From Phyllobacterium myrsinacearum (GTDB taxonomy: Bacteria > Pseudomonadota > Alphaproteobacteria > Rhizobiales > Rhizobiaceae): a stretch of DNA of 64,000 nt. The translations under genes were made by a program, and so were the position numbers. Each line of letters begins with the position of its first letter. Position 1 is the stretch's first letter. The DNA lies in the NCBI RefSeq assembly GCF_014138285.1, contig NZ_JACGXN010000001.1, positions 733,314-797,313 on the forward strand, given 5' to 3'. Positions 21,624-25,596 of the stretch are shown here, piece by piece. The notes beneath the pieces were generated by a model. The model did no database searches. It had not been told where the DNA came from and was given only the letters and a program-made list of their open reading frames with translations.

Positions 21624-22079
21624 TTAGGCGACCTTGACGTCCTTGATTGCCTTCTCAACAGCCGACTTGACCGGAGCGGAGATTTCTTCAACAGCCTTTG
21701 TTGCAACTGTCTGGAATTCCTTGGCCTGACCGGTCAGAGCTTCGGCCTGCTTGCGAACGAAGGCGCTCTGCAGTTCGATAACTTCGCCAAAAGACTTAAC
21801 GCCGATCAGAGCTTCGATATGAGCGAAGCTGGCTTCGGTGTTGGCGCGCAGCGCAGCCAGAGCCTTGAGCGAAAGAGCAGCAGTGTTGGACTGTGCAGTT
21901 TCAAAAGTGGTTTCGAGTGTCTTCTGTGCAGCTTCAGCCTGATCCTTGATCTTGGCATAAGCTTCCTTGGACTGGGCAACGCCCTTCTCGGTGAATTCGC
22001 GAACCTGATCGGTTACAGCGGTTGCATCAAATGCAGGAATCGAGAACGCATCAGCAGTCTGTTTGGTTGTCTTGCTCAT
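21624..22079 (-). CDS. Phasin family protein
   Basis: Protein of 151 aa, helical and rich in Ala, Lys and Glu, with a phasin_2-type core (VREFTEKGVAQSKEAYAKIK, KALAALRANTEASFAHIEAL, QSAFVRKQAEALTGQAKEF). Phasins coat polyhydroxyalkanoate granules and control their size and number. AAGGAAC lies just before the ATG at 22079 on the minus strand; the frame extends to 22148 but that extension is not phasin-like. The terminator at 21495-21522 and the inverted repeat at 22151-22186 suggest a monocistronic, regulated gene. Confidence 0.88.
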   Translation of the reverse strand: MSKTTKQTADAFSIPAFDATAVTDQVREFTEKGVAQSKEAYAKIKDQAEAAQKTLETTFETAQSNTAALSLKALAALRANTEASFAHIEALIGVKSFGEVIELQSAFVRKQAEALTGQAKEFQTVATKAVEEISAPVKSAVEKAIKDVKVA

Positions 22080-22186: not shown

Positions 22187-22303
22187 CAAGAGTCTGATTT
22201 TCCATCGAAATATTTTTGTGGGATAGCGTCCAAGTTAACTAAACCAAGAGAAAGACGTGTGAGTTAGATGAGTGTGAGTGGACCATTGACCGCCGTAGCT
22301 TTA

Positions 22304-22319
22304 TTAACAGAGTATTAAG
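22304..22319 (+). promoter_or_regulatory. CtrA-box-like site upstream of pdhS
   Basis: TTAA-CAGAGTA-TTAAG matches the CtrA consensus TTAA-N7-TTAAC at 8 of 9 defined bases. It lies 50 bases before the preferred pdhS start at 22369, where a CtrA-controlled -35 region could sit. A GANTC methylation site is at 22190-22194 in the same interval. Confidence 0.5.
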
Positions 22320-22368
22320 ACAGTCCGCGATCATGCGGATGTTTATTGTGGAGTACACCGGTCAACCG

Positions 22369-25300
22369 ATGACGTCTGGAACCTACCCATTCATCGATAT
22401 TGCCGTTCTGGATGAGATTCGCGAGCATTTTGCCAACGGCGATGCGCTTGTGGTTATTTCGCCGGATCTGGACAGTGTCATATGGGCCAATGGTCAGGGC
22501 GCATCCGCTTTGGGCTATTCGACGATCGATGACATTCTGGATGCGGGCTCAGTACTCAATGTTCAGGCGCGGCGACAACTCATGGCACTTGACGGCTTCC
22601 CGGCCATCGGCCATGGCCGCACGGTTTCACTGCGTGTGGCATTCGGACTGGCCAGCCGTATCCTGACGTTTCAGGCCAGCGATCTGACACTGCCGCGTGG
22701 CGAACCAGCCATCCTCCTCTCCATCGCCAATACATCGCGGATAACATCGGAAGCGGAAATCGCAACGCTCGCCATCAAGGGTTTTGGCGACAGTACAACC
22801 CATGCGGCAATGATTGATGCCAGCGGGAAGGTATTGGCCGCGTCGGATCAGTTCCGTGCCATCGGGTTCAGCGATAAGATTCTGGGCGATCTGGTGCGTG
22901 AAGTCCGTCTGGAACGCAACCGGCTTGTCAAGCGACCGGTTCAGACATCGGGCGGTTTTGTGCCGACCGGCATTGCCCGGCTGACCGACAGTCCTGCCCT
23001 GCACCTGCTGTTCGCCATTGAAGACGTCAATAAGGTTGCAGTGCAACCGGTAGCGATTGAAGACAAACAGCCAGAGCCGCCCGCTGAACCATCACAGCTC
23101 AGGGCTGGACGGGATGCCGGGGAAAGCGTTGCTGAGACCGCAGAGCCACCGCGCAGCACGGCTGCCGTTGAGCCAATCGAGGAAGCTGTTTCAGATGCGG
23201 TTGCAGAGCCAGCCGAGCAAGAGCTGCTGAATACGCCACCCGAAGGCGGCGCTTTTCTGTACAAGCCCTCTGACAATCCCGCCCGCTTTGTCTGGAAAGT
23301 AGATGCGGATGCCAGATTCAACGAAGTATCGCCCGAGCTTGTACGCGCCGTGGGGCCCAATTCAGCCTCCGTTATCGGGAAATCCTTCCGCGACGTTGCC
23401 AAGGTCTACGGGCTGGACAGCAGCGGCGAGATAGCTGATCTGCTGGAGCGGCGGGACACATGGTCGGGCAGGAGCGTTCTCTGGCCCATCGAAGGAACCG
23501 ATCTGCGTGTTCCCATCGAACTCGCGGCCCTGCCGATTTATTCACGCGAGCGTGTTTTCATGGGCTTTCGCGGTTTTGGTGTTGCCCGGATGGGTGACGT
23601 TACAACAGACCCGGAAGCCATCGGCAAGGCGCTGGCTCCCGAACCAGCGGCGTCTGCCGACGTGTTCAACGGCGAAAAACCTGCCATTGCCATCACGCCC
23701 GAGGCTCAGGTCGAAGCTCCCCGCGAGGAAGCCAAGCCCGAACCGAACGAAGGCAATGTCATCCCTTTGAAGACCAATCGCCTTCCCCGCGACGATGGCC
23801 GCCTGAACGATGCCGAACGCAATGCTTTCAGGGAAATTGCAGAACGCCTCCGCCGCGAAGTTCTGGCTGACAATCCAAAAGAAACGGACAATGTGCCTGC
23901 GGTTGCCGCTGCGGATGTCGAAGCGGTATCAGGACTAGAGGCAACAGATCCGACACCATCTGATCCCGTTCTGGCGCTGGTTCCCGATGCGGAAGTGGTC
24001 GGCCCGGGTTTCGATGCATCAGCAGATATAGATGCGAAGGCACCCACGCCCGAGGCGGCGCCGGAAAAGGACTTTGCCGAAAATATCCGGACAAAGGCCC
24101 GGCAGGGTGTGGATACAGCCATTCTGGCTGCACTGCCATTACCCGTTTTGATCCATCGTCATGGCATTCTTCTCTACGCCAACAAGGCACTCCTCGACGC
24201 CACGCTTTATGAATCGCATGAGACCATCAATGCCGCCGGCGGGCTGAATGCCCTTTTCGCCGAGAACCCGGAACAGAGCGACGACGAGGATGCGGAAGGC
24301 ATGAACCTGCGTCTGAGCAACGGCACGACCAAACGTGTGCAGGCGCACCTTCAGGCTGTGCGCTGGGACGAAGATGGCGAACGCGCATTGCTGCTGGCCC
24401 TTTCGCCGGAAGCACAAACAGAGGCACCGGTTGCGCCATCGCCGGAACAGCGGTTCGACGACAGCGAGCGTCTGCTCCTGCAAACGCGTATCGATGAGCT
24501 TAATGCCATTCTGGACACCGCGACGGACGGGGTGGTTCTGTTGGATTCGGCCGGTGCAATCCGCTCCGTCAATCATTCTGCCGCGGCCCTCTTCGGCTAT
24601 GAGCCGGAAGAGGTGGAAGGCAAGGCCTTTTCGCTGCTTTTCGCCATCGAGAGCCAGCGCACGGCCATGGATTACGTCAGCAGCCTTTCCGACAATGGCG
24701 TTGCCAGTGTTCTCAATGATGGCCGCGAGGTCATTGGCCGCGAGAGCAAGGGACGGTTCATCCCGCTGTTCATGACCATTGGCAAGCTTGACGCATCAAA
24801 AGGCTTTTGCGTCGTGCTGCGTGACATCACGCATTGGAAACAGGCCGAGGAAGAGCTGCTCAGCGCGAAACGGGAGGCAGAACGGACTTCCAGCCAGAAG
24901 AGTGAATTCCTCGCCCGGATCAGTCACGAGATCCGCACGCCGCTCAACGCGATTATCGGCTTTTCCGAACTCATGGCGGACGAGAAGTTTGGGCCTATCG
25001 GCAGTGAACGGTATCGCGACTATCTCAATGATATCAGCCGATCCGGCAATCACGTGCTGTCACTGGTCAATGATCTTCTCGATATCTCCAAGATCGAGGC
25101 GGGTGCCGTCGAGTTCGATTTCCAGGCCGTATCGCTGAACGAAGCGCTCACCGAAGCCGTGGCAATCATGCAGCCACAAGCCAATCGCGAACGGGTGATC
25201 ATCCGTTCCAGCCTTACGTCGCGCCTGCCTGATATTGTCGCCGACCAGCGCTCGGTAACCCAGATTGCGCTCAACCTTCTGTCCAATGCCATCCGCTTTA

Positions 25301-25596
25301 CCGGCCCGGGCGGACAGGTGATCATTTCGACCAGTTATGAGCCGAGCGGCGATGTACTTTTGCGCGTGCGTGACACGGGCATCGGCATGACGCGGCAGGA
25401 GGTCGAACAGGCATTGCGCCCCTACAAACAGATCACCACCCCAAAGCATGCGCGCACGGATGGCACCGGTTTGGGCCTGCCCCTGACCAAAGCCATGGCA
25501 GAGGCGAACCGGGCAAGCTTCTCCATCGATTCAACACCGGGGCGCGGAACCATGGTGGAAATTAGTTTCCCGTCGACACGGGTTCTGGCGGATTAA
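22369..25596 (+). CDS. pdhS: PdhS-like cell-cycle sensor histidine kinase
   Basis: Large cytoplasmic kinase of 1075 aa from this start. There is an N-terminal PAS-like sensory region (YPFIDIAVLDEIREHFANGD), long acidic and Pro/Glu/Ala-rich linkers, and a PAS domain near residue 710 (LNAILDTATDGVVLLDSAGA). The HisKA domain has His853 in FLARISHEIRTPLNAIIGF, followed by a DivJ/PleC/PdhS-type dimerisation helix (GSERYRDYLNDISRSGNHVL). ATPase boxes are LNLLSNAIRF, DTGIGMT and GTGLGLPLTKAM. Brucella PdhS is an old-pole kinase partner of DivK. The ATG at 22333 is an alternative start, only 14 bases after the CtrA-like box. Confidence 0.85.
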   Translation: MTSGTYPFIDIAVLDEIREHFANGDALVVISPDLDSVIWANGQGASALGYSTIDDILDAGSVLNVQARRQLMALDGFPAIGHGRTVSLRVAFGLASRILTFQASDLTLPRGEPAILLSIANTSRITSEAEIATLAIKGFGDSTTHAAMIDASGKVLAASDQFRAIGFSDKILGDLVREVRLERNRLVKRPVQTSGGFVPTGIARLTDSPALHLLFAIEDVNKVAVQPVAIEDKQPEPPAEPSQLRAGRDAGESVAETAEPPRSTAAVEPIEEAVSDAVAEPAEQELLNTPPEGGAFLYKPSDNPARFVWKVDADARFNEVSPELVRAVGPNSASVIGKSFRDVAKVYGLDSSGEIADLLERRDTWSGRSVLWPIEGTDLRVPIELAALPIYSRERVFMGFRGFGVARMGDVTTDPEAIGKALAPEPAASADVFNGEKPAIAITPEAQVEAPREEAKPEPNEGNVIPLKTNRLPRDDGRLNDAERNAFREIAERLRREVLADNPKETDNVPAVAAADVEAVSGLEATDPTPSDPVLALVPDAEVVGPGFDASADIDAKAPTPEAAPEKDFAENIRTKARQGVDTAILAALPLPVLIHRHGILLYANKALLDATLYESHETINAAGGLNALFAENPEQSDDEDAEGMNLRLSNGTTKRVQAHLQAVRWDEDGERALLLALSPEAQTEAPVAPSPEQRFDDSERLLLQTRIDELNAILDTATDGVVLLDSAGAIRSVNHSAAALFGYEPEEVEGKAFSLLFAIESQRTAMDYVSSLSDNGVASVLNDGREVIGRESKGRFIPLFMTIGKLDASKGFCVVLRDITHWKQAEEELLSAKREAERTSSQKSEFLARISHEIRTPLNAIIGFSELMADEKFGPIGSERYRDYLNDISRSGNHVLSLVNDLLDISKIEAGAVEFDFQAVSLNEALTEAVAIMQPQANRERVIIRSSLTSRLPDIVADQRSVTQIALNLLSNAIRFTGPGGQVIISTSYEPSGDVLLRVRDTGIGMTRQEVEQALRPYKQITTPKHARTDGTGLGLPLTKAMAEANRASFSIDSTPGRGTMVEISFPSTRVLAD

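Follow-up and report, generated by a model that had tools for sequence, protein, structure and literature searches.

The stretch analysed here, called the window, comprises 64,000 nucleotides of Phyllobacterium myrsinacearum (assembly GCF_014138285.1, contig NZ_JACGXN010000001.1, positions 733,314 to 797,313), whose genome amounts to 5.97 Mb in 40 contigs. It contains a gene for a PdhS-type histidine kinase which shares an intergenic region with a divergent phasin gene and which is preceded by a CtrA-type full box, TTAA-N7-TTAA (Table 1). PAS, HisKA and HATPase_c domains are all present in the kinase product and PdhS is its best named match (NF041593); since the score of 1194 bits lies below the curated cut-off of 2000, the gene is called PdhS-type rather than certified as PdhS. 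A homologue search returned Phyllobacterium species as the nearest pdhS relatives of the locus, and in plasmid records similarity was limited to the phasin side, in two Phyllobacterium records.

Table 1. Features of the phasin-pdhS region, numbered from the first base of the window
Feature	Position	Strand	Description and basis
pdhS-type histidine kinase gene	22369..25596	+	conserved start MTSGTYPFIDI; PAS, HisKA, HATPase_c; relatives
Phasin gene, divergent, common intergenic region with pdhS	21624..22079	-	TIGR01985 above cut-off; Phasin_2; start read from sequence
TTAA-N7-TTAA CtrA-type full box, TTAACAGAGTATTAA	22304..22318	+	overlaps predicted -10 and predicted transcription start
Predicted -10 element TATTAA	22302..22307	+	last four bases are the left half-box; inferred
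Predicted -35 element TGGACC	22279..22284	+	4/6 to TTGACA; columns rich in information at box -25 to -21 (54 genomes)
Predicted transcription start	22314 (within about 2 bases), inside box	+	inferred from -10 position
Upstream CtrA-type half-site TTAAC (in GTTAAC, 22234-22239)	22235..22239	+	69 bases ahead of box
GAGTC (GANTC) site, intergenic	22190..22194	+	114 bases upstream of box; not conserved, probably incidental

Ahead of pdhS the elements are arrayed in the order TTAAC, TGGACC, 17 bases, TATTAA, 7 bases and TTAA. The box, TTAACAGAGTATTAA, lies at 22304-22318 and is followed by a G at 22319. The first-pass annotation had reported a TTAA-N7-TTAAG box at this place, which proved real, and its distances were confirmed from the coordinates: the preferred ATG at 22369 begins 50 bases, and the ATG at 22333 14 bases, beyond the end of the box (22319, G included). 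We read the box as a CtrA operator laid over the pdhS core promoter, where it probably represses the gene and closes a double-negative CtrA/PdhS loop; the identity of the promoter, CtrA as the binder, repression and the step through DivK are all predictions from sequence.

The remark of the first-pass annotation that the box bears on the choice of start codon was useful, and the relatives favour 22369. In the P. myrsinacearum sequence the frame is open for 42 codons upstream, so that this sequence alone leaves 22333 possible. In 5 of 20 same-genus genomes (L069, L077, L078, L079 and L081), at most two open codons precede the conserved start, which rules out 22333 and makes 22369 the better predicted start. 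A small hairpin at 22323-22340 of the predicted pdhS leader includes the ATG at 22333, and similar single folds occur in three relatives; no conserved leader hairpin was found, single folds giving z values of -0.5 to -2.0 and the consensus fold on the alignment giving no pairs.

Within the window the box is the single copy of TTAA-N7-TTAA with the exact 7-base spacing. Since 0.11 copies were expected in shuffles and 10 of 100 shuffles had at least one site, the occurrence by itself is weakly above chance; what lifts the box above chance is its conservation across genomes, not its being the sole copy in the window. The first-pass annotation had offered conservation among close relatives as a check that could go against its idea, and the box was found in all 20 same-genus genomes, our own included. 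All 20 also have a -35-like TGGAC (TAGAC in one) at equal distance and a TTAA half-site at -69, numbered from the box. These genomes contain 14 distinct 40-base composites and thus are not all copies of one another. Upstream DNA suitable for comparison was available for 31 named relatives, and 29 of these likewise have the full box (the 31 comprise the first 34 loci except L029, L030, L032 and L033, together with L057 from the remaining 27, mostly distant ones; this set and the same-genus genomes are partly the same assemblies). The two relatives lacking it, L026 and L027, have TTAA-N7-TAAA in its position; L019 and L023 differ in the spacing of the -35-like element, which is 18 bases instead of 17.

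For the family as a whole, the comparison covered 101 genomes from 100 genera; in 95 of these genomes a PdhS-type protein was matched at E ≤ 1e-60. The composite TGGACS-N17-TATTAA-N7-TTAA, one mismatch being allowed, occurred in 62 of the 101, one match apiece, against 10 matches for the reversed pattern, and by coordinates all 62 lie on the same strand as a PdhS kinase match and within 4 kb upstream of it. Spacing controls were run on the 91 of 93 other family genomes with a PdhS match that had upstream DNA. TTAA-N7-TTAA occurred in 68 of the 91, whereas each of the spacings N3-N6 and N8-N13 occurred in 0-2; the spacer from T(G/A)GA to the -10 was 17 bases in 56 genomes and 18 in 6, other lengths being found in 0-1. 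A spacer of 17 or 18 bases is normal for a sigma-70 promoter. The composite scored 14-15 of 15 on the gene strand in 64 of the 91, as against 8-11 in 88 and 12-13 in 3 on the opposite strand; G030 and G072 score low merely because the open frame reaches far upstream, and both have the composite. Taken together, these comparisons establish which elements are present, how they are spaced, and that they are conserved and specific to pdhS, and the spacing controls and the pdhS specificity rule out a chance occurrence of the array.

A logo anchored on the box was built from 54 upstream regions, namely 53 of 68 family loci and our own genome; 15 loci were left out (protein start unrecognised or upstream DNA too short), and where a locus offered several boxes, preference went to the better -35. 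Its strong columns are TGGAC at -25 to -21 (1.2-1.4 bits), TATTAA at -2 to +3 (1.5-2.0) and TTAA at +11 to +14 (1.8-2.0), while within the N7 spacer A is moderately favoured, as is a G at +10 (up to 0.95 bits). The second base of the -35-like element is G (TGGAC, not TTGAC) in 47 of the 54 genomes. Five loci (L097, L112, L170, L173 and L177) have TATGAAT instead of TATTAA at the left half-box, and therefore a possible start ATG inside the box.

The position of the box within this array is what points to repression. With TGGACC-N17-TATTAA as the promoter, the box would extend from about -10 to +5, and because the predicted -10 contains the left half-box, bound CtrA should block RNA polymerase. 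Activation by CtrA, giving classical negative feedback as at divJ in Sinorhizobium meliloti, was weighed against this and seems unlikely. In its favour, most full boxes in Caulobacter act as activating sites near -35 (Zhou et al. 2015, PMC4287350), and for S. meliloti direct activation of divJ by CtrA, CtrA binding at the cbrA promoter and a negative feedback have been described (Pini et al. 2015, PMC4433202). At our locus, an activator-type arrangement would need a -10, a start and a ribosome site after the box, and the shortest leaders, in which the ATG lies 34-38 bases after the start of the box (starts taken as the nearest Met, used for distances alone), leave too little room for them. Nor does the 54-genome logo have a conserved column downstream of the box (each ≤0.26 bits), although in other genomes a -10 at variable spacing would stay hidden there, and T(G/A)GA, with its constant distance of 17-18 bases, sets the box at the predicted -10. 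The positional rule in Caulobacter agrees with repression, in that CtrA activates from full and half sites near -35 and represses from half-sites over -10, and the full box at -14 of ctrA P3 is taken as repressing (PMC4287350).

Reporter data from Agrobacterium tumefaciens bear on the sign (Heindl et al. 2019, PMC7003649). The pdhS1 promoter, which was chosen for a predicted CtrA site, was at 119% without pdhS2 and 90% when divK was missing; the ctrA promoter moved the opposite way (84% and 117%, respectively). The dgcB and Atu3318 promoters moved in the pdhS1 direction, and mutation of the predicted CtrA box derepressed both. The pdhS1 reporter thus has, weakly, the sign of CtrA repression, opposite to that expected from activation.

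Several observations weigh against repression by CtrA. The reporter effects for pdhS1 are small (PMC7003649), the prevalent effect of full TTAA-N7-TTAA sites in Caulobacter has been mentioned, and the change of S. meliloti cbrA under CtrA may be activation (PMC4433202). TGGACC and TATTAA each agree with the consensus at 4/6 positions, and scanning with a generic sigma-70 model, in which the final -10 base has to be T, gave no promoter at the locus. In 23 of the 91 family genomes no exact full box lies in the scanned stretch. Genome-wide there are 33 TTAA-N7-TTAA sites as against 52 for the reversed pattern; the bare motif is without enrichment and so proves little. Moreover, 5 of 20 scanned neighbours of the other boxes match no family, and four that do, namely an SDR oxidoreductase, DsbD, TopA and RepA, are not classical CtrA targets.

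As for the binder, CtrA is encoded in the genome (NF045991, 421 bits, cut-off 350; among 14 control genomes Caulobacter alone matched). By a simple open reading frame (ORF) call, 27 of the 32 other full boxes are intergenic. Twenty neighbouring ORFs were scanned, a sample that takes in the neighbours of some of the boxes. Besides the four just named, those above cut-off were minC and a GGDEF protein; below cut-off, and in some cases cut by the stretch, were FtsK-, EnvC-, RpoD-, L,D-transpeptidase- and class A penicillin-binding-like products and two Adr-like ones. In S. meliloti, CtrA represses minCD, and its chromatin immunoprecipitation sequencing (ChIP-seq) signal covers the cbrA promoter (PMC4433202); Brucella PdhS, CbrA and PdhS1 have been classed together as large proteins for which no membrane segment is predicted (PMC3577659). 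Control of pdhS by CtrA is well supported by the conservation in sequence and by the ChIP-seq on cbrA, a gene of the same class. The first-pass annotation had suggested that CtrA may control its own upstream kinase in a feedback loop; this idea stands, although it came without a sign, and the predicted promoter architecture now points to repression and mutual inhibition.

It is very unlikely that some other TTAA-preferring protein reads the array, or that the array is an unusual core promoter, CtrA being uninvolved. The G for T in the TTGAC-like -35 of 47/54 genomes is explained neither by CtrA nor by ordinary sigma-70 and would suit such a reading. Set against it are the second TTAA past the -10, where no core promoter element is known, the 11-base direct repeat with a GTTAA right half, which fits the CtrA consensus quoted in PMC7003649, and the published cbrA occupancy.

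Two further observations concern the other boxes of the genome. On a 6.8 kb contig, a full box (L247; G000:C28, box at 1538) precedes a repA-type plasmid partition gene by 110 bases, and the two Adr-like genes (L231 and L234), whose matches to that outer-membrane family are weak and below cut-off, each have a full box about 70 bases before the start.

The upstream half-site was analysed in loci chosen for a good composite: of 105 loci scanned, 66 from 63 genomes (three represented twice) had a composite score of at least 14 and 200 bases upstream, and statements on the half-site refer to such loci. TTAAC or GTTAA was found between -175 and -26 in all 66, as compared with 13.9 expected in shuffled DNA, with a cluster near -70; alignment on TTAAC gives the consensus (A/G)TTAACC, the sixth place being C in 60 of 66. 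Counted per genome (a 64th had too little upstream DNA), the distance was -68 to -70 in 54 of 63, -58/-59 in 7 and -79/-80 in 2, so that the nine exceptional half-sites are displaced by about one helical turn, which keeps the half-site on one helical face. On a kinase tree of 59 rows, four with the -58 state, well-supported branches force at least two changes of position, the tree being poorly resolved overall.

The half-site invites the alternative of two-way control, in which it would lie near -79 from the start and stimulate at low CtrA while the filled box represses at high CtrA, holding pdhS in a middle range. Class I activators work from upstream positions near that of the half-site, and its presence in every good-composite locus, on one helical face relative to the promoter, would fit such a role; moreover, TTAACCAT serves as a second, atypical CtrA motif elsewhere (PMC11527210). 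The half-site could equally stabilise repression, or it could serve the divergent phasin gene, present in 55 of the 66 loci, and we consider two-way control improbable. The box itself as a phasin element was rejected: its spacing to the -35 and the half-site is fixed, whereas the edge of the phasin match lies at a varying distance from it, 170 to 304 (n = 55), and the 11 of 66 loci without a phasin match in the DNA examined also count against it.

On repression of pdhS by CtrA, the following mechanism may be envisaged. RNA polymerase with the housekeeping sigma factor would read TGGACC-N17-TATTAA and start near 22314. When phosphorylated CtrA is abundant, it would occupy the tandem half-sites, from about -10 to +5, thereby shutting the promoter, with the half-site near -79 assisting, perhaps as a second contact kept on one helical face. 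PdhS made at low CtrA would phosphorylate DivK and so lower CtrA activity; old-pole kinases of this class have been described as capable of phosphorylating DivK and PleD and thus of indirectly inactivating CtrA (PMC7003649). Because PdhS-class kinases oppose CtrA, CtrA repression of pdhS would make the loop double-negative, and the mutual opposition of CtrA and PdhS could sharpen the switch between CtrA-high and CtrA-low states.

The first-pass annotation had also placed a GANTC site between the box and the ATG. There is none before either ATG, the nearest being the intergenic GAGTC at 22190 and a GATTC at 22416 inside the pdhS gene. Co-control of pdhS by GANTC and GcrA was ruled out, as the upstream GANTC is not conserved in relatives: in 17 of 22 named relatives the 300 bases ahead of the match contain no GANTC. 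In the window as a whole (1-64000), GANTC is strongly avoided, with 119 sites as against 299 expected from dinucleotide shuffles. Genomes that encode a CcrM-type methylase show such avoidance.

At the level of the order, 38 of 249 genomes contain the core composite when a single mismatch is allowed (9 in the family and 29 outside). Among 21 outside-family loci examined, a PdhS match lay nearby in 14, with the matching frame opening 4-91 bases past the box, and in 7 there was none. When the half-site was added and up to two mismatches were allowed, 34 of the 249 genomes matched (5 in the family and 29 outside), with one control match. Of 25 outside loci then examined, 23, belonging to eight further families, are followed on the same strand by similarity to a PdhS-type protein. 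Eight of these 23 similarities, in three families, are weak (E 1e-11 to 1e-14), and the comparison, over 1.5 kb downstream, reaches the N-terminal and middle part and stops short of the kinase domain. These matches speak for the spread of the array rather than its frequency. In a class-wide search, 5 of 289 genomes matched (our own and four others) as against four control matches, and the four others had no PdhS match. The phasin-pdhS neighbourhood is old: a phasin match accompanies the composite at 23 of the 30 loci from the order (L248-L277), five of them of our own family.

Parts of this picture have precedents. The S. meliloti cbrA promoter is likewise that of a PdhS-class kinase and is occupied by CtrA (Pini et al. 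2015, PMC4433202). It is without a known start site (legend of figure S6, which marks predicted CtrA sites), and the portion of that text covered here contains neither a conserved array nor a sign for cbrA. At Caulobacter ctrA P1 and P3 (Zhou et al. 2015, PMC4287350) a CtrA site over the -10 is taken to repress, and both the position over the -10 and the repression are predicted here; the 5' base of the box is at -14 in P3 as compared with about -10 in our locus. Unlike at P1 and P3, a full box, a fixed predicted -35 and a phased half-site are combined here, conserved ahead of one gene across genera. Caulobacterales have no PdhS-type kinases other than PleC and DivJ (PMC3577659), and Brucella PdhS co-localises with DivK (PMC10787603). 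A. tumefaciens pdhS1 (Heindl et al. 2019, PMC7003649) resembles our locus in its predicted CtrA site, with the reporter opposite to the ctrA promoter; Table 1 of that paper lists mutated boxes for dgcB and Atu3318 alone, and the section covered here gives no description of the pdhS1 architecture. The gene name atu0614 is absent from the main text of the Agrobacterium start-site paper. The same idea, CtrA feeding back on DivK kinases, was put forward for divJ and pleC in Rhizobiales by Brilli et al. 2010 (PMC2877005), in whose main text the words PdhS and CbrA are absent. The double-negative pdhS loop predicted here differs from the negative feedback described for S. meliloti divJ (PMC4433202). 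A description of the array was not found in the open full-text literature searched, and the Brucella CtrA ChIP-seq (Francis et al. 2017) may list pdhS. The link between CtrA and PdhS/CbrA is therefore known in part, and the fixed architecture together with the predicted sign is the addition.

More tentatively, and with some doubt, the pdhS promoters of the order might all be one ancient device, so far seen there alone, in which a CtrA operator fused to the -10 is combined with a phased half-site about 69 bases upstream to form a looped or two-threshold switch and a bistable mutual inhibition of CtrA and PdhS. The array is a recognisable signature for locating pdhS and its start in unannotated genomes, and a fixed promoter that predicts the sign of CtrA action turns a vague feedback into a directly testable claim. 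The matter bears on the timing of asymmetric division in rhizobia and their relatives, which have several DivK kinases; a bistable circuit, if true, would set cell fate at division where CtrA acts on the DivK kinases and not on divK.

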